A stretch of 64,000 nt of DNA, taken from Deltaproteobacteria bacterium (lineage in GTDB: Bacteria > Desulfobacterota > Desulfobaccia > Desulfobaccales > 0-14-0-80-60-11). The notes below the pieces were generated by a model. The model did no database searches. It was not told where the DNA came from and saw only the letters and a list, made by a program, of their open reading frames with translations. Location of the stretch: assembly GCA_030018495.1 (NCBI GenBank), contig JASEFS010000013.1:1-64000 (forward strand). Direction: 5' to 3'. Position numbers and translations under genes: made by a program. Below are positions 20,309 to 31,910 of this stretch, one piece after another; positions within the stretch are counted from its first letter, which is position 1, and each line of letters opens with the position of its first letter.

Positions 20309-21571
20309 ATGCTTGCGGAAGTTCAACTATTTCTTAAGGACCTGCAGCGCCAGGAACTGCCCCCCGCGGTGTGGGAGGCCTACGTCCAGGATTTAGGGGA
20401 ATTACTCAATTTTCTCCAGGACCTGGGCCGCGCCCATTGGTCCGCGGTAGAGGCTGAAGATATCCAGAAATACCTGCAAACCTTGAAGGACCGGGGCATC
20501 CCGCGCTCCAGCCTGGACCGCCGCCTGAAGGTTCTCCGCGGTTTTAACGATTTTCTTCTCCAGGGCCGCTGCATTGCCGCCAGCCTGCTGCCGGCCGCCG
20601 CGCCAGACGCCTCTCCCTCCCAGGTACTGAGCCAGCCGGAATTGCAGGCCCTCCTGACCGAACTGGCCGAAGCCGGTCCGGATCATCTGGACGAGATGCT
20701 GGAGCAGTTCTATCATTATTTAGGGGTGGAACGCGGCCTGGCCTCCCTCACCCTGGAGTCTTATGCCGGCGATCTCCAGGATTTCCGGGAATTTTTGGAC
20801 CGGCTGGGCCGCACTGCCTGGGAAGAGGTAACGCTGGCCGACCTGCAAAACTATTTGGCGGAACTGGCGGCCAGGGGTCTGGCCCCCACCAGCCGGGCCC
20901 GGCGCTTGTCGGCCTTGCGCCAGTTCTTCCGCTTTCTGCAGCAGGAAGAAAAGCTGGCGGCCAACCCGGTGGAGCTCCTGGACTCCCCGCGGCTGCCCAT
21001 GAAGTTGCCGGAGGTGCTCAGCGAATCGGAAGTGGAGGCCCTGCTGGCCGCGGCCGACCCCTCCACGCCCCTGGGACTCAGGGATGCGGCCCTGCTGGAG
21101 GTGCTTTACGCCACCGGCCTCAGGGTCTCCGAGCTGGTGGGCCTGACTCTCAAGCAGGTGGACCTGCGCCGGGGGGTGGTGCGGCCCCTGGGCAAGGGGC
21201 GCAAGGAGCGCCTGGTGCCCATGGTCCCTCAGGCCGTGGAAAAATTGCGCCGGTACCTCAAGGAGGGGAGACCCCGATTGCTCAAGGATAAAGACAGCCC
21301 GTTTGTTTTTCTGAACAGCCGCGGCGGCCCCCTGACGCGCCAGGGTTTTTGGAAGATTCTGCGCAACTATGCCAGAAAGGCCAACGTCAGGCAATTGAGC
21401 CCCCATGTTCTGCGCCACTCCTTTGCCACGCATTTGCTCTCCCGGGGGGCGAATCTCCGGGTCCTGCAATTGCTCCTGGGCCACGCGGACCTGGCCACCA
21501 CCCAAATCTACACGCACCTGGAGGCCGAACGCCTCAAGGCCGCCCACCAGAAGGCGCATCCCAGATCATGA
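20309..21571 (+). CDS. XerC/XerD-type tyrosine recombinase with a duplicated N-terminal domain
   Basis: Site-specific recombinase of the Xer family, which resolves chromosome dimers at dif. It is 420 residues, about 120 longer than usual. The catalytic set is complete: R272 (ATGLRVSEL), K296 (GKGRKER), H366 and R369 (SPHVLRHSF), H392 (LGHADL) and nucleophile Y401 (TQIYTHL). The normal core-binding domain is at about 129-225. A second SAM-like domain occupies about 5-95, followed by VLSQPELQALL (106-116), which mirrors the VLSESEVEALL linker at 236-246, so the N-terminal unit looks tandemly duplicated and diverged. Its TGA stop overlaps the next ATG (ATGA). It may be the cell's Xer enzyme or a lineage variant. 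Confidence 0.88.
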   Translation: MLAEVQLFLKDLQRQELPPAVWEAYVQDLGELLNFLQDLGRAHWSAVEAEDIQKYLQTLKDRGIPRSSLDRRLKVLRGFNDFLLQGRCIAASLLPAAAPDASPSQVLSQPELQALLTELAEAGPDHLDEMLEQFYHYLGVERGLASLTLESYAGDLQDFREFLDRLGRTAWEEVTLADLQNYLAELAARGLAPTSRARRLSALRQFFRFLQQEEKLAANPVELLDSPRLPMKLPEVLSESEVEALLAAADPSTPLGLRDAALLEVLYATGLRVSELVGLTLKQVDLRRGVVRPLGKGRKERLVPMVPQAVEKLRRYLKEGRPRLLKDKDSPFVFLNSRGGPLTRQGFWKILRNYARKANVRQLSPHVLRHSFATHLLSRGANLRVLQLLLGHADLATTQIYTHLEAERLKAAHQKAHPRS

Positions 21572-24267
21572 GCCCTAATCGCCCTGCGCCGCGCCGCACT
21601 CTGGAGGTCATCACCACCCATTTAAATGCGGATTTCGACGCCCTGGCCTCCATGGTGGCCGCCAAGAAGCTCTATCCCGACGCGCTGCTGGTCTTTCCCG
21701 GCGCTCAGGAGGGCAGCCTCAGGGACTTCTTCGTGCGCTCCAGCTTCTACTTCCTGGATTTCACCCGAGCCAAACATGTGGCTCCCGAGGAAATCAAGCG
21801 CCTTATCCTGGTGGACACCCGCCAGCTTTCCCGCATCGGCAAATTCGCGGACGCGGCCCTTTCCGGGGAAGTGGACATTCACGTTTACGACCATCATCCC
21901 GACAGCCCCGAGGACGTTCACGGCAGCGTCGAGGTGGTTGAGCCTTTAGGCTCCACCACCGCCATTCTCACCCGGATTCTCCGGGAAAAAGGCGCGGAGC
22001 CCACACCCCAGGAGGCCACCATCATGGTCCTGGGAATCTTCGAAGATACGGGTTCTTTCACCTTTTCCTCCACCACCCCGGAGGATTTGGAGGCTGCTGC
22101 CTACCTCCTGCGCCGGGGCGCCGACCTCAATGTGGTGGCGGAAATGGTCACCCGGGAGCTGACCGCTGAACAAGTGTCCCTGCTGAACGAGCTTATCCAA
22201 AACCTCAGCACCTTCAAAGTCAACAATATAGAGGTGGTTATCGCCCGGGGCGCCACTTCCCAGTATGTGGCCGATTTCGCGGTCTTGGCCCACAAGCTCA
22301 TGGATATGGAAAATATCCAGGTGCTTTTCGCCCTGGCCCAAATGGAGGAGCGGGTCTACATCGTTGGCCGCAGCCGCATCCCGGAAGTCAATGTGGCCGA
22401 AATTCTCGGCGAGCTGGGCGGCGGCGGCCATGAATACGCCGCGTCTGCTGCGATCAAGGGCAAGCCCCTGTCCCAGGTGGAAGAAAAGCTCAAACAGGTG
22501 TTGCAGACCCATATTCACCCCCAGCGCCGGGCTCGGGAGATCATGTCGTTCCCGGTCAAGTCGATCGAGCCGACAGCCACTTTGGAAACCGCGGAGCTCC
22601 TTCTCAACCGCTACAGCGTCAACGCCCTGCCGGTCATCGATAACGGCCAGCTTTTGGGGATGATCAACCGGCAGACCGTGGAAAAAGGCATCTATCACGG
22701 CCTTAAAAGCCACCAGGTCCGCGATTACATGACCCACCCCATTGCCACGGTGGGGCCGGAAGCCACCCTGGCCGAAATCCGGGAGGCCCTGGTCATCAAC
22801 AAGCAGCGCCTCCTGCCCGTGGTCGCCGACGGCCGGGTCATCGGGGTGATCAGCCGCACCGATCTCCTGCACCTGCTCATCGACCATGAGGAAGAGGCTC
22901 AATGGGCCCAGCCCCTGCGCAAGAAAAACATCGTCAGCATGATGCGGGAGCGCCTCCCCGCCCATATCCTGAAGATTCTCGAGCAGGTAGGGAGAGTAGC
23001 CGAAGAGCTGGGTTACCACGCCTACGCGGTGGGCGGCTTTGTCCGGGACCTGTTCCTCAAGGAGGAGAACCTGGACATCGACATCGTCATCGAAGGGGAC
23101 GGCGTGGAGTTCGCCCGGCGTTTTGCGGCGCGCTACGGCGCCCGGGCCCGCATATTTCAAAAATTCAAGACCGCAGTCATTATTTTCCCGGACGGCTTCA
23201 AGATCGACGTGGCCACGGCGCGCACCGAATATTATGAAGCCCCGGGGGCCCTGCCCGTGGTGGAATACAGCTCCATCAAGATGGACCTCTACCGCCGGGA
23301 TTTCACCATCAACACCCTGGCCATAAATTTGAATCCCGGGGAGTTCGGCACCCTGCTGGATTTTTTCGGGGCCACCCGGGACCTGAAGGAGCGGCGCTTA
23401 AGCGTGCTGCACAACCTGAGCTTCGTGGAAGATCCCACCCGGGTGTTCCGGGCCATCCGCTTTGAGCAGCGCTTCGGCTTCCGCATCAGCAAGCTGACGC
23501 TCAACCTGATCCAGAACGCGGTGAGAAACAACTTTTTCGACCGCCTGTCGGGTCCGCGCCTGTTTCAGGAGTTAAAGCTCATTCTGTCCGAGGAAAATCC
23601 CATCCCCGCCGTCGCCCGCCTGGCGGAGTTGGACCTGCTCAAAGCCCTGCACCCCCGCCTTTGGTTTGACGAAGGCACCCGGGCAATGCTGGAGCGGGTG
23701 CAGGCGGTGCTCTCCTGGTTCGACTTGCTGTATCTGGATGAAACTTATGACAAATGGCTGGTCTATTTCCTGGGTTTGGTGGAACCCCTCAAGCCCGAGG
23801 AACTTAAGGAAATGATGATGCGTTTCAAGCCTTCCCCCAAGGTGGCGGCGGCCATCTTGACCGGCAAAGAAGGCGCGGACCAGGCCCTGCTGAAACTCTT
23901 CCGCTTGGGGGATGAGCCCAGGCGGAGCCAGATTTATCACCTGCTATCCCCGTTGGCCACGGAATATCTCCTTTACATGATGGCCAAGTCCCGCCAGGAG
24001 GCTTCCCGCCGCGCCATTTCCTTGTATTTCACCCACTTGAAGCACTTGAAGCCGGAATTGAAAGGGCGGGACCTTATCGCTCTCGGTTATCAGCCCGGTC
24101 CCCAGATCAGCGAAATGCTCAAACTCCTCCACGAAGCCCGCTTGAATGAGGAGGTGCAGACCATCGGCCAGGAGTTGGCGCTGATTCGCCAGCATTACGG
24201 CAGGGGAGGCGGGAGGGCCACGGGGGAGGAAATGCGGCCCGAAGAGTCAGCCGAGGGCATTTCCTGA
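21568..24267 (+). CDS. DHH-CBS-tRNA nucleotidyltransferase (CC- or A-adding type)
   Basis: An 899-residue multidomain protein. In order: DHH phosphoesterase domain (THLNADFDALASM at 17-29, YDHHPDS with DHH 108-110); DHHA1 domain with GGGGH (284-288); two CBS modules (about 320-440); and a class II poly(A)/CCA nucleotidyltransferase from about 475 (GG at 489-490, DxD metal ligands D503 and D505, RRDFTINTLAI, EDPTRVFRAIRFEQRF) with helical tail. In several bacteria such long enzymes split CCA addition into A-adding and CC-adding forms, so this may add only part of CCA. The ATG overlaps the recombinase stop by 4 bases, and the two are translationally coupled. Confidence 0.93.
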   Translation: MSPNRPAPRRTLEVITTHLNADFDALASMVAAKKLYPDALLVFPGAQEGSLRDFFVRSSFYFLDFTRAKHVAPEEIKRLILVDTRQLSRIGKFADAALSGEVDIHVYDHHPDSPEDVHGSVEVVEPLGSTTAILTRILREKGAEPTPQEATIMVLGIFEDTGSFTFSSTTPEDLEAAAYLLRRGADLNVVAEMVTRELTAEQVSLLNELIQNLSTFKVNNIEVVIARGATSQYVADFAVLAHKLMDMENIQVLFALAQMEERVYIVGRSRIPEVNVAEILGELGGGGHEYAASAAIKGKPLSQVEEKLKQVLQTHIHPQRRAREIMSFPVKSIEPTATLETAELLLNRYSVNALPVIDNGQLLGMINRQTVEKGIYHGLKSHQVRDYMTHPIATVGPEATLAEIREALVINKQRLLPVVADGRVIGVISRTDLLHLLIDHEEEAQWAQPLRKKNIVSMMRERLPAHILKILEQVGRVAEELGYHAYAVGGFVRDLFLKEENLDIDIVIEGDGVEFARRFAARYGARARIFQKFKTAVIIFPDGFKIDVATARTEYYEAPGALPVVEYSSIKMDLYRRDFTINTLAINLNPGEFGTLLDFFGATRDLKERRLSVLHNLSFVEDPTRVFRAIRFEQRFGFRISKLTLNLIQNAVRNNFFDRLSGPRLFQELKLILSEENPIPAVARLAELDLLKALHPRLWFDEGTRAMLERVQAVLSWFDLLYLDETYDKWLVYFLGLVEPLKPEELKEMMMRFKPSPKVAAAILTGKEGADQALLKLFRLGDEPRRSQIYHLLSPLATEYLLYMMAKSRQEASRRAISLYFTHLKHLKPELKGRDLIALGYQPGPQISEMLKLLHEARLNEEVQTIGQELALIRQHYGRGGGRATGEEMRPEESAEGIS

Positions 24268-24367: not shown

Positions 24368-24772
24368 TTAATTCTTTTTAACATTTTCCCGGATGTACTT
24401 GATGATGTCGCCGGTGTCCGTGCCGGGGGTGAAGATCTCCGCGATGCCGGCCTGCTTGAGGGCCGGGATGTCTTCATCCGGGATGATGCCGCCGCCCAGC
24501 ACGAGGACATCCTCAATGTTTTTGTTTTTTAAAATTTCCATCACCCGGGGGAACAGATAACCGTGGGCCCCGGACAGGCAGCTCATGGCGATGACGTCCA
24601 CGTCCTCCTGGATGGCCGCGGCCACGATCTGCTCCGGCGTCTGGCGCAGGCCCGTATAGATCACCTCCATGCCGGCGTCCCGGAGCGCGGCGCAAATGAC
24701 CTTGATGCCCCGGTCATGGCCGTCCAACCCCGGTTTGGCGGCCAATACGCGAATTTTCCTGGCTTCTTGCAT
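24368..24772 (-). CDS. methylmalonyl-CoA mutase, B12-binding (C-terminal) subunit
   Basis: A 134-residue cobalamin-binding Rossmann domain encoded apart from the catalytic chain. It has the DxHxxG motif D17-G-H19-D-R-G22 (H19 is the lower cobalt ligand), SCLSGAH and [12 protein letters not shown]. Together with the large subunit it converts succinyl-CoA and methylmalonyl-CoA. Split mutases of this kind are typical of archaea and some Desulfobacterota. It is on the same strand as the large subunit, 233 bases downstream; a terminator follows. Confidence 0.95.
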
Positions 24773-25005: not shown

Positions 25006-26673
25006 CTATGCCGCGGCGGCCTCATATTCTCCGAACACAGCCCTGAGGGTGTCGCAGACCTCGCCCAGGGTGGCCAGGGCCTTGACAGCTTTCAGAATAG
25101 GCGGCATCAGGTTGGCGTCGCCCGCGGCCGCGGTCTTGAGTTCCGCCAGGGCCTGCTGCACCGCGCCGTTGTCCCTGGTGCTCTTGAGTTCCTTCAGACG
25201 GGCGATCTGGCGATCCGCCACGGCAGGATCGACCTTGAGCAGATCCTTGGGCTTTTCCTCTTCGGCCACCTGGAACTTGTTCAAGCCCACGATGGTGCGT
25301 TCGCCGGACTCGATTTCTTTCTGATAGCGGTAGGCGCTGTCCGCGATCTCCTTCTGGATGAAGCCCTTCTCGATCGCGGCCACGGCCCCGCCCATCTTGT
25401 CGATCTGGTCGATATATTCCTGAGCCTTGGCTTCGATCTGGTCCGTGAGATTTTCTATAAAATACGACCCGGCTATCGGGTCCACCGTATCGCATACCGC
25501 GGTTTCGTGGGCGATGACCTGCTGAGTTCTGAGGGCCACCTGCACGGCCAGCTCCGACGGCAGGGCCAGGGCCTCGTCAAAGGAATTGGTGTGCAGGGAC
25601 TGGGTGCCGCCCAACACCGCGGCCAGGGCCTCATACGCGGTGCGCATGATGTTGTTCAGGGGCTGCTGGGCCGTGAGCGAGCATCCCGCGGTCTGGGTAT
25701 GGAACCTGAGCATCTGGGAGCGGGGGTCCGCGGCCCCGAAGCGCTCCTTCATGATCTTGGCCCACAGTCGCCGGGCCGCCCGGAATTTGGCGATCTCCTC
25801 AAAGAAGTCCAGGTGCGAATTGAAAAAGAAGCTCAGGCGCGGCCCGAACTCGTCCACTTTAAGGCCGGCCTGAATGGCGGCTTCCACATAAGCGATGCCG
25901 TTGGCCAGGGTAAAGGCCACTTCCTGCACCGCGGTGGAGCCGGCCTCCCGGATGTGGTAGCCGCTGATGCTGATGGTGTTCCACTGGGGCACGTTTTCGG
26001 TGCAGTACGCGAAAATGTCGGTGATCAGCCGCATGGAGGGCCGGGGCGCGAAGATATAAGTGCCCCGGGCCGGGTATTCCTTCAAGATATCATTTTGCAC
26101 CGTGCCCCGGAGTTTGTCGAAGGGAACCCCCTGCTTTTCCGCCACCGCCAGATACATGGCCAGGATGACGGCGCACGGGGAGTTGATGGTCATCGAGGTG
26201 CTCACCTGCTCCAGGGGTATCCCCTGGAAGAGCCGTTCGATATCCCACAATGAGTCGATGGCCACGCCCACCTTGCCCACTTCCCCCTGGGCTAGGGGAT
26301 GATCCGAATCGTAGCCGATCTGGGTGGGCAGGTCGAAGGCCACGGACAACCCGGTTTGCCCCGACTTCAGGAGAAAATGGTAGCGTTCGTTGGTCTCCTC
26401 CGCGCTGCCGAAGCCGGCATACTGACGCATGGTCCAATACCGGCCGCGGTAGGCCGTGGGCTGCACCGCGCGGGTGAAGGGATATTGGCCGGGCATACCC
26501 AATTTCTCGATATAATCAAAATCCTGCATGTCCAGAGGAGTATACACCCGGGCCACGGGAATGCCGGAGGTGGTGGCGAACTCCGCTTTTCTCTCCGGCA
26601 TTTTCTTCAAGACCTTCTCTACCTGGGCTTCGTATTTGGCCTTGAGCTCTTGCAACTTCTGGAGATCATCCAT
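25006..26673 (-). CDS. methylmalonyl-CoA mutase, large (N-terminal) catalytic subunit
   Basis: A 555-residue TIM-barrel subunit of the B12-dependent mutase. It has the [14 protein letters not shown] opening, [36 protein letters not shown], and the conserved region around [14 protein letters not shown], with [23 protein letters not shown] and [21 protein letters not shown]. The length matches the large chain of split mutases. The pathway is propionate or succinate metabolism, or dicarboxylic acid degradation; no other members are in the window except the B12 subunit downstream. The ATG is at 26673. Confidence 0.95.
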
Positions 26674-26928: not shown

Positions 26929-28758
26929 CTAAATCTCCCCGTCCTGCTCCATCTTGACCAGGTCTTCGAAGCGGATATCCATGCCCAGGACGCCCTGGAT
27001 TTCATCGTTGTCGTCCCGGATGGGCAGGCTCACCGTGATGCACAGCGCCCCCGTGAAACGGGAGGTGTAAAAATCCGAAACGTAAACCTTGCCGCTCTTT
27101 ATGGGTTCGATGAACCAGGGCCGGTTGGACAGGTCTTCATCCAGGCCCATGGTCTCGTACTTGGCCCGGTCCACGATATGGGTGATGTTGCGGGTGGTCT
27201 TCCGCCCTTCCAGGTTGGTTACATACATGAACTGGATAAAGGGGTTGTTGTCCAGGACGCGCTGCATGACGGGTTCCTGCCGGGCCGGGTCCATGGAGCG
27301 GATTTCCTCGCGCTGGGCCAGGTCTTCGGCCAGGTGCGCCGCCAGCTTGTAAGCCTTGTCTTTGAGCTGGTCGAATTCCGACACGAAAAGCTCCGGCAGG
27401 TACTTTCGGGCCAGCCCTTCCATTTCCTCGTTGGAGATGGAGGTGCACCGGCCGCCTTCGTACCATTCCATGATGCGCTTGTGGATTTTGATTACCCCCG
27501 GATGCATCTTGTCCACCTGGTTGTCGCCGGTCAAATTCAGTTTGGCGTTGATCCAGTGGACGATGCCGGCCTTGCCCGATTTGTCGGTGATGGTGATGGT
27601 CAGGGGTCGCCGCAGAATTTTGGCCGTATCAAAGGCGTTGTAGATTTCTTCGTTCTTCAGGAGGCCGTCGGCGTGGATGCCGGCGCTGGTGGCGTTGAAG
27701 CTGTTGCCCACAAAGGGGAAGTTGGGCGGAATGCGGTAGTGCAGCTCCCGCTCGAAATACTCGGCGATGTCGGTGATCACCGTGGTGTCGATGCCGTCGT
27801 TGCTGCCCCGGAAGCCGATGTATTCCATGATCAGTGCTTCGATGGGAGTATTGCCGGTGCGCTCCCCGAAGCCCAGCAGAGTGCCGTTCACCGCGCCGCA
27901 GCCATAGAGCCAGGCCGTGACCCCGTTGATGAAGACTTTGTGAAAGTCGTTGTGGCCGTGCCATTCCATCAGATGGCCGGGCACGCCGGCGTCTTCGATC
28001 ATGGCCCGCACCAGCCGGGGGACGCTCCGGGGCAGCGCGGCGCCGGGGTAGGGCACCCCGAAACCCATGGTGTCGCACAGGCGGATCTTCACGTCGATGC
28101 CGCTTTCTTCCCGGAGGCGCATCAGTTCCAGGGCAAACGGGACACAAAAGCCGTAGATGTCGGCCCGGGTGATGTCTTCGAAATGGCAGCGGGGCACGAT
28201 GCCGTGGTCCAGCGCGGCTCTGGCGATATTCAGATACTCTTCCATGGCCCGGCGCCGGTTCCAGTTCAGCTTGAGGAAGATATGATAGTCGGAAACGGAA
28301 GTCAGGATGCCGGTCTCCCTCAGGCCCATGTCTTTCACCAGGGTCAGGTCCGCAGGGTTGGCCCTTATCCAGCCGGTGATCTCCGGGAAGAGATAGCCCC
28401 GCTCCCGGCAGCGCTCCACCGCTTCCTTGTCCTTGGCGCTGTACAGGAAGAATTCGCTCTGGCGGATAATGCCCTTGGGGCCGCCCAAGCGGTGCAGCAT
28501 GTCGAAGATATCGACGATCTGCTTCACGGTGTAAGGCGGCCGGGCCTGCTGCCCGTCCCGGAAAGTGGTGTCCGTGATGAGCATCTGCTCCGGCGGCTGG
28601 GGCATGACGAATTTATAGTCAAAATCGATGCGGCCGATTTCCGTGTACGGAAAAATATCCCGCATCAAATTGGGTTCTTCCACCTCGACGAGGCGGTGCC
28701 GCCAAAAATGGCTGTGCTCATGGTCCAAAAGCCGCCGATCAGGATTCCAACGTGCCAT
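26929..28758 (-). CDS. HMGL-like carboxyltransferase (candidate Re-citrate synthase) with C-terminal Cache-like domain
   Basis: A 609-residue DRE-TIM enzyme related to isopropylmalate, homocitrate and Re-citrate synthases. ITDTTFRDGQQARPPYT (R67, D68) is the signature of the acetyl-CoA condensing group, and HGHND (about 266-270) supplies metal-binding histidines. Many such proteins are mislabelled histone-lysine methyltransferase; the Re-citrate synthase of Clostridium kluyveri and Desulfovibrio belongs to this group, so citrate formation is the leading idea. The C-terminal 110 residues (about 495-605) look like a Cache/PAS sensor domain: FMYVTNLEGRKTTRNIT, NRPWFIEPIKSGKVYVSDF, ITVSLPI and GVLGMDIRF. 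It precedes the mutase genes on the other side. The start is ATG 28758. Confidence 0.75.
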   Translation of the reverse strand: MARWNPDRRLLDHEHSHFWRHRLVEVEEPNLMRDIFPYTEIGRIDFDYKFVMPQPPEQMLITDTTFRDGQQARPPYTVKQIVDIFDMLHRLGGPKGIIRQSEFFLYSAKDKEAVERCRERGYLFPEITGWIRANPADLTLVKDMGLRETGILTSVSDYHIFLKLNWNRRRAMEEYLNIARAALDHGIVPRCHFEDITRADIYGFCVPFALELMRLREESGIDVKIRLCDTMGFGVPYPGAALPRSVPRLVRAMIEDAGVPGHLMEWHGHNDFHKVFINGVTAWLYGCGAVNGTLLGFGERTGNTPIEALIMEYIGFRGSNDGIDTTVITDIAEYFERELHYRIPPNFPFVGNSFNATSAGIHADGLLKNEEIYNAFDTAKILRRPLTITITDKSGKAGIVHWINAKLNLTGDNQVDKMHPGVIKIHKRIMEWYEGGRCTSISNEEMEGLARKYLPELFVSEFDQLKDKAYKLAAHLAEDLAQREEIRSMDPARQEPVMQRVLDNNPFIQFMYVTNLEGRKTTRNITHIVDRAKYETMGLDEDLSNRPWFIEPIKSGKVYVSDFYTSRFTGALCITVSLPIRDDNDEIQGVLGMDIRFEDLVKMEQDGEI

Positions 28759-28858: not shown

Positions 28859-30640
28859 TTATTTTTCCAGTCTCAAACCCAATTCCAACAGCTGCTCCGT
28901 CTCCACCTTGGCCGGGGCCCGGGTCATGAGGCAAGCGGCTTTCTGGGTCTTGGGAAACGCGATTACTTCCCGGATGGACTTGACTCCGCAGAGAATGGCC
29001 ACCAGGCGATCGAACCCGAAGGCCACGCCTCCGTGGGGCGGCGCGCCGTAATCCAGGGCCTCCAATAGAAAGCCGAATTTTTCTTCAGCCTCTTCTTTAG
29101 AGAGCCCCAACACGTCGAACACCTTGTCCTGAACGTCCCGCCGGTAGTTGCGGATGCTGCCGCCGCCGATTTCCTGGCCGTTCAACACCAGGTCGTAGGC
29201 CCGGGCCCGCACCTTCTCGGGCTTGGTGCCCAGCAGAGGAATGTCTTCCTCCCAGGGCGCGGTGAAGGGATGGTGCACGGCTACGTGGCGCCGTTCCTCG
29301 TGGTCATATTCCACTAAAGGGAATTCAGTGACCCACACCAGGTTGTAAGCGCCTTCCGGGATGAGCCCCTCACGCTGCCCCAGGTGCAGGCGTATCTGGC
29401 CCAACGCGGTGTTGGCCACCATAGGGCTGTCGGCCACAAACAGGATCAGGTCCCCTTCCCGGGCCTGAAGCCGCTCGTTAATGGCGGACTTGACCCCTTC
29501 CGGGAAATATTTGGCCAAGGGGGATTGCCAGCCGTTGGCCTGGAGCTTCACCCAGGCCATGCCCCGGGCGCCGTAAACCCCGGCCAAATCGATGAGGTCG
29601 TCCAGGTCCTTGCGGGACAGCCTGGCCATTCCAGGGGCGCATAGAGTCTTGACTATGCCGCCCTGATCCACCACCTCCCGGAATTGACGAAATTCCGCTT
29701 CCTTGGCCAGGTCCGTGACGCTGTTCAATTCCAGCCCGAACCGCATGTCAGGGCGGTCCAGTCCGAACCGGGCCATACACTCGGCATAGGTCAGGCGGGG
29801 AAAGGGCAAGGCCAGGTCAAGGTCGAGCAGTTCCTTAAACAGGGAGGCCATGAGCCCTTCCACTACCCGGAAGATGTCTTCTTCAGTGATGAAGGACATC
29901 TCCATGTCAATTTGGGTGAATTCCGGCTGGCGGTCGGCCCGCAGGTCCTCGTCCCGGAAACAGCGGCAGATCTGGTAATAGCGCTCCAGCCCGGCCACCA
30001 TCAGAAGCTGCTTGAACAATTGGGGCGATTGGGGCAGGGCGTAGAACTGGCCGGGGTTGACCCGGCTGGGCACCAGGTAATCTCTGGCCCCTTCCGGCGT
30101 GCTCCGGGTGAGGATAGGGGTCTCCACTTCGATAAACCCCTGGCCGTTCAGGTACTGCCGGGTCACCTGAGCAGCCCGGTGCCGGAAAAGGATGTTTTTC
30201 ATAACCAGGGGCCGGCGCAAATCCAAGTAGCGGTACTTCAGCCGCAGGGTCTCGGAAACGTCCACCCGGAAGTCTTCCAATTCAAAGGGAGGCGTTTTGG
30301 CCGCGTTCAAGATGCGCAGCTCCTCCACCAGCACCTCGATCTCCCCGGTTTCCATCTGAGGATTCACCATGTCCGGGGGCCGGGGCTGCACCACGCCCCG
30401 CACCGCCATGACCCACTCGTCCCGGAGCGCGCCGGCTTTCTTATGCGTGTCAGGCTGCACTTCCGGATTGAACACCACCTGGGTCATCCCCTCCCGGTCC
30501 CGCAAATCCACAAAAATGACGCCGCCATGATCCCGGGCGCGCTGCACCCACCCCATGAGCACCACTTCTTTACCCACGTCCGAGATTCTTAAACCTCCGC
30601 AGGAATGGGTGCGTTCAAGCCCCTCTAACGATTCCAGCAC
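28859..30640 (-). CDS. aspS: aspartate--tRNA ligase
   Basis: Bacterial-type class II aspartyl-tRNA synthetase, 593 residues. Present are the N-terminal OB anticodon-binding domain (VVLMGWVQRARDHGGVIFVDLRDREG), class II core motif 2 (CFRDEDLRADRQPEFTQID), GAD insertion, and motif 3 (GVAFGFDRLVAILCG). It starts at GTG 30640, one base after the hisS stop, with its AGGAAGGA ribosome-binding site inside the end of hisS; the two are translationally coupled. Whether it is discriminating or also charges tRNA-Asn is not visible here. Confidence 0.97.
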   Translation of the reverse strand: MLESLEGLERTHSCGGLRISDVGKEVVLMGWVQRARDHGGVIFVDLRDREGMTQVVFNPEVQPDTHKKAGALRDEWVMAVRGVVQPRPPDMVNPQMETGEIEVLVEELRILNAAKTPPFELEDFRVDVSETLRLKYRYLDLRRPLVMKNILFRHRAAQVTRQYLNGQGFIEVETPILTRSTPEGARDYLVPSRVNPGQFYALPQSPQLFKQLLMVAGLERYYQICRCFRDEDLRADRQPEFTQIDMEMSFITEEDIFRVVEGLMASLFKELLDLDLALPFPRLTYAECMARFGLDRPDMRFGLELNSVTDLAKEAEFRQFREVVDQGGIVKTLCAPGMARLSRKDLDDLIDLAGVYGARGMAWVKLQANGWQSPLAKYFPEGVKSAINERLQAREGDLILFVADSPMVANTALGQIRLHLGQREGLIPEGAYNLVWVTEFPLVEYDHEERRHVAVHHPFTAPWEEDIPLLGTKPEKVRARAYDLVLNGQEIGGGSIRNYRRDVQDKVFDVLGLSKEEAEEKFGFLLEALDYGAPPHGGVAFGFDRLVAILCGVKSIREVIAFPKTQKAACLMTRAPAKVETEQLLELGLRLEK

Positions 30641-30641
30641 C

Positions 30642-31910
30642 TCAGTTTCCTTCCTCAGCCGCGGCCAGGTTTTTGAGGGCGGATTTGAGCTCCATAATGC
30701 GAATCGATTCCTGGGAGCCGCTTTTCATGTCCCGCACCACAATTTCTCCCGCAGCCAGTTCCCTGTCTCCCAATATCGCCACCCACCTGGCCCCCAGCCG
30801 GTCGGCCAGGGACATTTGGGCCTTCAAGGACCTGCCGTCGAAGTCCATCTCTGCGGCCAGTCCTGCACCTCTCAGCTCCTGTACCAGGGTCAGACACCGC
30901 TCCAAAGCCGACCGGCCCAGAGCCGCCAGAAAAACGCTCTGGTCGGCGCTCCGGCCCTCCGCTTCGGGCAGGACTTCCAGCAGCCGGTCTTCCCCGATAG
31001 CAAAGCCGAACCCCGGCAGGTCAGGCCCGCCCAACTCCCGGATCAGACCGTTGTAGCGCCCGCCCCCGGCCACCGCGTCCTGCGCGCCGAGTGCCGCCGC
31101 GGTTACTTCGAACGCGGTGCGGGTATAATAGTCCAACCCCCGCACCAGCCGCGGCTGCTCCTCAAAATCGATGCCGAATTGTTCGAGGAGGGTCAGCACC
31201 CTTGAGTAATGACGGCTGCAGGCCTCGCAGAGGGAATCTTTCAGGACCGGCGCGGTTTTGAGCAGCTCCCGGCAGGTCTGCGACTTGCAGTCCAGCACCC
31301 GCAAGGGGTTGACCTCCCGGCGGCGCAGGCAGTCCGGGCACCAGCCCTCCCGGCTGAACAGGAAGAGCTTCAATTTGGCCTTGAAATCCTCCTGGCATTC
31401 GGGACAGCCCAGAGAGTTGACAAGCAGCCGCAGGTTGCTTAACTTGAGGCGGCCCAGAATCTCCCAAAGCATGAGGATCACTTCCGCGTCCAGCTCCGGG
31501 GCGTCAGAGCCCAAGGCCTCGCAGTTGATCTGGTAAAACTGCCGGTAGCGCCCTTTTTGAGGCCGCTCATAGCGGAACATGGGGCCCATGAGGAAGTACT
31601 TTTTGACCCCGGCGCCTTTCTCCAGGCGGTTTTCCAAAAAGGCCCTGACCACCTGGGCGGTGGCTTCGGGCCGCAGGGTCACCGAATCCCCGTGCCGGTC
31701 GATAAAGGTGTACATTTCTTTGGCCACGATATCGGTGTCCGTGCCGATGGAGCGCGCGAAGAGCTCCGTGCGCTCCAAAAGCGGCAGGCGCAGCTCGCGG
31801 TAGCCGTAAAGTCGAAAAACTTCACGGGCCGTCGTCTCCACCCACTGCCACCGTTCGGATTCCGGCGGCAGGATATCCTTCATGCCGCGCACGGCGCGAA
31901 TCAATGCCAT
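30642..31910 (-). CDS. hisS: histidine--tRNA ligase
   Basis: Class II histidyl-tRNA synthetase, 422 residues, normal length. Motif 1 (MKDILPPESERWQWVE), motif 2 (GPMFRYERPQKGRYRQFYQIN), the histidine-specific LVRGLDYYTRTAFEV and motif 3 (GFGFAIGEDRLLEVL) are all seen. The C-terminal anticodon-binding domain follows. It has a cysteine-rich insert (CPECQEDFKAKL, WCPDCLRRREVNPLRVLDCK) of the zinc-knuckle kind found in some bacterial HisRS. aspS follows 1 base later in the operon. Confidence 0.96.
   Translation of the reverse strand: MALIRAVRGMKDILPPESERWQWVETTAREVFRLYGYRELRLPLLERTELFARSIGTDTDIVAKEMYTFIDRHGDSVTLRPEATAQVVRAFLENRLEKGAGVKKYFLMGPMFRYERPQKGRYRQFYQINCEALGSDAPELDAEVILMLWEILGRLKLSNLRLLVNSLGCPECQEDFKAKLKLFLFSREGWCPDCLRRREVNPLRVLDCKSQTCRELLKTAPVLKDSLCEACSRHYSRVLTLLEQFGIDFEEQPRLVRGLDYYTRTAFEVTAAALGAQDAVAGGGRYNGLIRELGGPDLPGFGFAIGEDRLLEVLPEAEGRSADQSVFLAALGRSALERCLTLVQELRGAGLAAEMDFDGRSLKAQMSLADRLGARWVAILGDRELAAGEIVVRDMKSGSQESIRIMELKSALKNLAAAEEGN

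Follow-up and report, generated by a model that had tools for sequence, protein, structure and literature searches.

We found that the gene at positions 26929–28758 on the reverse strand of the window, the 64,000-nucleotide stretch of DNA analysed here, encodes an enzyme that is best interpreted as a Re-citrate synthase, with the activity of this copy judged from its orthologs, and that this enzyme carries a Cache domain at its C-terminus. Re-citrate synthase is the alternative that anaerobes have to the ordinary citrate synthase, to which it is unrelated. The Cache fusion is the rule in the phylum, and since both parts lie in one frame in 145 of 153 homologs, it is neither a chance join nor an assembly artefact. 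No description of such an enzyme–Cache fusion was found in the open-licence literature; the kind of enzyme is known, and what is new there is the recognition of the Cache domain as its part. We consider it probable that the protein is a Re-citrate synthase whose cytoplasmic Cache pocket binds a small carboxylate and tunes the enzyme.

Layout of the protein and identity of its catalytic part

The open reading frame starts with ATG and runs through 609 amino acids to a stop codon (Table 1). The Pfam scan was made on a copy of the protein without the first methionine, so that 1 has to be added to its coordinates. In this Met-less numbering, HMGL-like (PF00682) was matched at 59–332 (E 3e-25), MCP-like_PDC_1 (PF22673) at 495–599 (E 5.2e-16; 59.5 bits against a curated cut-off of 27) and dCache_1 (PF02743) at 479–599 (53.8 bits against a cut-off of 45), which places the Cache models at about residues 480–600 of the full protein. 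The match to YkuI_C was weak (19.3 bits, cut-off 26). PADLOC gave no match to anti-phage defence.

Table 1. Features of the synthase gene and of the genes beside it (positions in the window; residues of the full-length protein).
Feature	Position	Strand	Remarks
Re-citrate-synthase-type condensing enzyme with C-terminal Cache domain	26929..28758	-	complete ORF, 609 aa, 70.1 kDa
N-terminal extension, residues 1–55	28594..28758	-	common to many Cache-less relatives, whose matches begin at residue 1 or close by
HMGL-like/DRE-TIM catalytic barrel, residues 60–333	27760..28581	-	PF00682; signatures ITDTTFRDGQQ and HGHND
Post-barrel part and helical linker before the Cache domain, residues 334–464	27367..27759	-	weak HCS_D2 match, below cut-off
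Cytoplasmic Cache (first-PDC-type) domain with long N-terminal helix, residues 465–609	26932..27366	-	PF22673, PF02743, model and KinD matches
R546-P547-W548	27115..27123	-	R and W align with PctA R126 and W128; R546 aligns with the site altered in KinD R131A chains
Y564	27067..27069	-	aligned with PctA Y144
D594	26977..26979	-	aligned with PctA D173
aspS-like gene	28859..30640	-	directly upstream; name from sequence
hisS-like gene	30642..31910	-	upstream of aspS; name from sequence
Methylmalonyl-CoA mutase large (N-terminal) subunit	25006..26673	-	downstream; PF01642 and TIGR00641 over cut-off
Methylmalonyl-CoA mutase B12-binding small subunit	24368..24772	-	PF02310 and TIGR00640 over cut-off

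The catalytic part contains the DTTxRDGxQ and HxHND signatures by which condensing enzymes of the HMGL/DRE-TIM fold are recognised, and among 51 aligned sequences H267, G268, H269, N270 and D271 were invariant and T62–Q71 near-invariant. Its best structural match was the homocitrate synthase 6ktq_A (Z 32.5). When the full-length model (pLDDT 82.9, pTM 0.68, with an uncertain interdomain geometry) was compared with the PDB, homocitrate, isopropylmalate and citramalate synthases mostly scored Z 30–32.5, HMG-CoA lyases about 23–25 and biotin carboxyltransferases 19–20. The preliminary description had grouped the N-terminal part with Re-citrate and isopropylmalate synthases while labelling the protein a carboxyltransferase. 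The grouping agrees with the homolog identities and the near-exclusion of Si-citrate synthase, both of which favour the Re-citrate type; the label has to be dropped, as no PYC_OADA match was found and the best carboxyltransferase listed reached Z 19.6 against 32.5 for homocitrate synthase.

Several other assignments were tried and were rejected or found no support. For a biotin-dependent carboxyltransferase (PycB/OadA or transcarboxylase 5S), PYC_OADA was not one of the six families that the Pfam scan listed at E values up to 10; for a NifV homocitrate synthase, the equivalog model TIGR02660 gave 134.9 bits against a cut-off of 462.9; and for a LeuA/CimA-type enzyme, the Pfam scan showed LeuA_dimer (PF08502) to be absent from the window protein and present in both paralogs, the LeuA and CimA of its own genome. 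The last result also answers the case that had been named as refuting a sensor domain, namely that the C-terminal part is the ordinary leucine-binding domain. No equivalog model was over its cut-off for the window protein.

These two paralogs, each over the cut-off of its own model, were the only further proteins of the genome that the window protein matched, at 26–33% identity. Much closer relatives occur in Brocadia and other Planctomycetes, Clostridia and Lentisphaerae, which are 54–64% identical over the catalytic part (58–62% for those of Brocadia). An excerpt of one report gives a Kuenenia gene as 55.1% identical to the Re-citrate synthase of C. kluyveri and posits it as a Re-citrate synthase (PMC8027424), and an excerpt of another divides Re-citrate synthases into at least two groups, with those of Syntrophus and C. 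kluyveri together and the heliobacterial one apart (PMC12016533).

An ortholog of 629 amino acids and 71,766 Da in genome G374 could be aligned gap-free with the window protein over 602 residues, at 64% identity, and its Cache domain scored 45.7 bits with PF22673, over the cut-off, and 32.1 bits with dCache_1, under the cut-off of 45. We take this genome to be Syntrophus aciditrophicus SB and the ortholog to be SYN_02536. The purified Strep-tagged Re-citrate synthase SYN_02536 reportedly has four subunits of 72,892 Da, and acetyl-CoA and oxaloacetate are said to be the only substrates that it used. With a Strep-tag, the G374 ortholog comes to 72,806 Da, 86 Da below the reported mass, and one more small residue would close the gap. 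The link between the ortholog and the purified Syntrophus enzyme thus appears strong, and a purified relative that carries the Cache domain apparently exists. Another ortholog, 67% identical to the window protein and also with a Cache domain, was found in the genome that we take to be Thermodesulfatator indicus. For T. indicus, a Re-citrate synthase homolog and glutamate formation via the oxidative branch, as followed by 13C tracing, are given in an excerpt of a published study (PMC12743299). Judged by sequence comparison, with the Syntrophus naming presumed, the window enzyme appears nearer to proven Re-citrate synthases than to LeuA, CimA or NifV.

Replacement of the ordinary citrate synthase predicts that the two types should complement each other among genomes, and this was observed. 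The window's own genome, 99.97% complete, has an NADP-isocitrate dehydrogenase over cut-off and no match to PF00285 (Si-citrate synthase) in a search that was positive in 13 of 14 control genomes. Among 148 genomes of the phylum that were 90% complete or more, in which the window-type protein was scored at E up to 1e-60, PF00285 was found in 78 and the window-type synthase in 75: both occurred in 11 genomes, the window type only in 64, the Si type only in 67 and neither in 6 (Fisher p 4.6e-23, not adjusted for shared ancestry). Nine of the PF00285 genomes have partial matches only, which we read as the sort that ATP-citrate lyase would give; without them, the counts were 9, 66, 60 and 13, respectively. 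As a counter-point, 11 of the 75 carriers also have a PF00285 match, while 64 of the 75 are without any.

The Cache domain and its pocket

The AlphaFold2 model of residues 465–609 had a mean pLDDT of 88.3 and showed a helix at positions 2–17 of the segment followed by the Cache core. Its best match in the PDB was the sensor of the sporulation kinase KinD (4jgo_B; Z 16.7, rmsd 3.0, 133 residues aligned), which was also the best sequence-profile match of the Cache part (E 2e-9). WalK and amino-acid chemoreceptors came next in the structure comparison and CitA, DcuS and DctB somewhat lower, with Z at least 8 for 225 of 999 PDB chains. No stretch of the window protein is hydrophobic enough for a membrane helix (the maximal 19-residue Kyte–Doolittle mean is 1.03), which indicates that the Cache domain is cytoplasmic. 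The extracellular location that is usual, though not universal, for the Cache superfamily therefore does not apply to this domain, fused as it is to a cytosolic enzyme. A Cache-like C-terminal part within a cytoplasmic enzyme had been proposed at the outset, and the Pfam matches over cut-off and the fold match to KinD identify it as a true Cache domain; its length, given there as the last 110 residues, needs correction to about 130.

R546, W548, Y564 and D594 were identical in 34 of 34 aligned proteins, in which identity to the window protein ranged from 43 to 92% over the Cache part and from 65 to 90% over residues 55–400. A profile alignment pairs these four residues with the amino-acid chemoreceptor PctA as given in Table 1, where positions in the aligned chain were turned into PctA numbering by a constant, presumed offset of 8. 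The dCache_1AA motif (Y121, R126, W128, Y129, Y144, D146 and D173) is present only in part: the position of Y129 is F549 in the window protein (F in 32 and Y in 2 of the 34 proteins), that of D146 is S566, and that of Y121 is E, A, T or V. According to an excerpt of the published work on this motif (PMC10104139), R126 of PctA hydrogen-bonds the ligand carboxyl, W128 and Y144 are favourably placed and line the pocket, Y129 has a structural role, and amino-acid and amine sensors have the final aspartate in common. R546 also aligns with the residue by which the R131A chains of KinD depart from the wild type, and the KinD entry 4jgp is titled as a pyruvate complex. A conserved arginine at the site of PctA R126 and KinD R131, together with this pyruvate entry, makes a carboxylate the natural guess for the ligand.

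A search with the Cache profile found no second protein of the same Cache family in the window's own genome. Elsewhere in the phylum, MCP-like proteins with a C-terminal Cache domain were seen at L085 3330–4634 (+), L086 3102–4397 (+), L087 3236–4531 (+), L088 3136–4440 (+) and L084 3955–5577 (−). The L087 protein, the sole one of the five that was scanned, matched MCPsignal and has no obvious membrane helix. All five resemble chemoreceptors of the cytoplasmic type in which the sensor is C-terminal.

Distribution, history and gene neighbourhood of the fusion

We surveyed 391 genomes of at least 98% completeness, of which 153 have a strong match to the window protein, and by hand count 145 of these homologs extend at least to residue 602 and so include the Cache domain. 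Among the other eight, the matches end at residue 457 (G043), 459 (G249), 433 (G242), 367 (G232) and 377 (G276), some perhaps at contig ends, and those of G303, G333 and G440 were not among the matches listed. A hand count in the 148-genome set gave a similar picture, with 72 of 75 homologs reaching residue 603 and G043, G063 and G153 as the exceptions. All 59 genomes drawn as relatives had some match, and the close ones were mostly full length.

Of 120 relatives, 80 related loci were kept: 34 have the Cache end, 45 from other phyla (L038–L075 and L077–L083, with Brocadia and Clostridia homologs among them) end at residue 446–472 without it, and L024 is cut by a contig end. Since these Cache-less relatives are presumably active, the Cache domain would not be required for catalysis. 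Versions without the Cache domain also occur in a few genomes within the phylum (G043, G063 and L102, the last of 455 amino acids), and these are useful as natural truncation controls. In a tree of the catalytic part, built from 50 of the 51 aligned rows after L036 was left out as too short, Cache-bearing and Cache-less proteins were separated by a single change with moderate support (91/85; in 92% of bootstrap trees); the Cache-bearing row L037 forms a long branch beside this split. This would be explained most simply by a single gain close to the root of the phylum or a single loss on the way to the other groups.

The hisS-like, aspS-like and synthase genes are collinear in the window. Of 45 Cache-bearing loci with sufficient sequence, 38 have an aspS gene directly upstream on the same strand, compared with 1 of 34 in the Cache-less group, which for the neighbourhood count comprised 47 loci including L024. 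Of 39 Cache-bearing loci that have at least 6 kb of downstream sequence, 18 have the large subunit of methylmalonyl-CoA mutase no farther than 4.5 kb downstream, as against 0 of 28 Cache-less ones. Thus, the mutase link is regional and by itself gives no pointer to the ligand, and the mutase neighbours carry less weight than first assigned to them, the upstream aspS being the steadier neighbour. In some relatives, further genes separate the enzyme from the mutase, such as those for a biotin carrier and an OAD_beta sodium-pump subunit in L006 (9857–12176) or a Carboxyl_trans gene in L026 (10560–12122), while in the window the mutase comes straight after the enzyme.

Beyond the mutase genes, the window contains at 20309–21571 (+) a XerC/D-like integrase, a single protein that has two SAM-like stretches (PF02899 twice) at its N-terminus, and at 21349–24267 (+) a long open reading frame with DHH, DHHA1, two CBS stretches, a PolyA polymerase head and RNA-binding domains, which probably encodes an A- or CCA-adding enzyme that has sensor domains. 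Outside the window, the same genome has a nifD over cut-off at G000:C1:13959–15506, and no NifV over cut-off was found in this genome.

Proposed control of the enzyme and comparison with known systems

The C-terminal domains of LeuA and CimA mediate inhibition by leucine and isoleucine, respectively. In the mechanism that we propose, the window enzyme would convert acetyl-CoA and oxaloacetate to citrate, the entry to 2-oxoglutarate and glutamate, with the Cache domain standing where LeuA and CimA have their leucine- or isoleucine-binding domain. The Cache pocket would bind a carboxylate, for which glutamate or another amino acid, 2-oxoglutarate, citrate, pyruvate and short organic acids are candidates, and the bound carboxylate would tune the activity of the enzyme. 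The domain is most likely an allosteric carboxylate site, as we infer from the pocket residues, and by analogy with the leucine feedback on LeuA, glutamate acting as an inhibitor would be a first guess. A wider version of this proposal, which we put forward tentatively, as something that may well turn out otherwise, is that throughout the phylum the Cache domain directly controls the initial step of the TCA cycle, as the first case of a Cache domain serving a metabolic enzyme as its allosteric domain, that the domain was captured from a receptor-type protein in place of LeuA_dimer or RAM, and that it went unnoticed in the purified Syntrophus enzyme.

The domain could also be a structural or dimerisation module that aids the oligomer and binds no ligand, its pocket being a relic. 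Dimerisation is among the roles that PAS and Cache domains can have, as stated in an excerpt of published work (PMC8694187), and the loss of two positions of the amino-acid motif and the existence of Cache-less relatives would fit such a role. However, the invariance of R546, W548, Y564 and D594 is more than dimerisation alone would need, and the same four residues are kept in two MCP-type Cache domains of just 33–35% identity; we therefore regard a purely structural module as unlikely, though as an explanation to be taken seriously.

The catalytic part might also form a product other than citrate, such as homocitrate for nitrogenase or 2-methylcitrate from propionyl-CoA, the latter fitting the mutase neighbours. 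The nifD without a NifV over cut-off leaves the homocitrate supply of the genome without explanation, and methylmalonyl-CoA mutase adjoins the gene, joined in relatives by carboxyltransferase/decarboxylase subunits. Nevertheless, the NifV equivalog score of the window protein is below even that of the genome's own LeuA (309.4 bits), the linkage to the mutase is confined to the 18 of 39 loci, the distribution complements that of Si-citrate synthase, and the S. aciditrophicus enzyme reportedly took only acetyl-CoA and oxaloacetate, so that another product seems improbable. More improbable still is that the Cache domain couples the enzyme to a signalling partner, as it might by pairing with soluble chemoreceptor-like proteins, so that metabolism reports to behaviour. 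It would accord with the five genomes of the phylum in which the C-terminal Cache domain of an MCP-like protein is 34–37% identical to that of the enzyme, but the window's own genome gave no second match to the Cache profile, and the enzyme and such receptors were not seen co-localised.

Among the extracellular sensors of prokaryotes, Cache domains are the most common, and their signal transfer has usually been studied across a membrane. A soluble Cache enzyme of the kind proposed would offer a direct read-out, in which a ligand is added and citrate is measured. If Cache control of the Re-citrate synthase is true, it would explain how anaerobes without the ordinary citrate synthase govern the entry of carbon into glutamate synthesis, and it would be a case of a regulatory domain swapped within the LeuA/citrate-synthase superfamily.

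Compared with known systems, the window enzyme shares its catalytic part with the Re-citrate synthases of C. kluyveri and S. aciditrophicus, and the 629-residue ortholog assigned to Syntrophus has the Cache domain as well, whereas the clostridial and Brocadia members lack it, their matches ending at residue 446–472. We know of no description of a Cache domain in a proven Re-citrate synthase. LeuA and CimA have the same HMGL/DRE-TIM fold with a C-terminal add-on, which is LeuA_dimer (PF08502) in their case and a Cache domain in the window protein. The Sulfolobus homocitrate synthase 6ktq, the nearest catalytic structure, also has a regulatory tail (its title names a dRAM construct), but the tail domain and the end product are different. 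KinD is a membrane kinase, and its sensor (4jgo/4jgp), the best profile and fold match of the Cache part, was solved as a chain longer than one Cache module. YkuI_C and Diacid_rec are described as mainly intracellular Cache families in an excerpt of the literature (PMC4822843). Both sit on signalling or regulatory proteins, whereas the window domain sits on a metabolic enzyme and scores far better as MCP-like_PDC_1.
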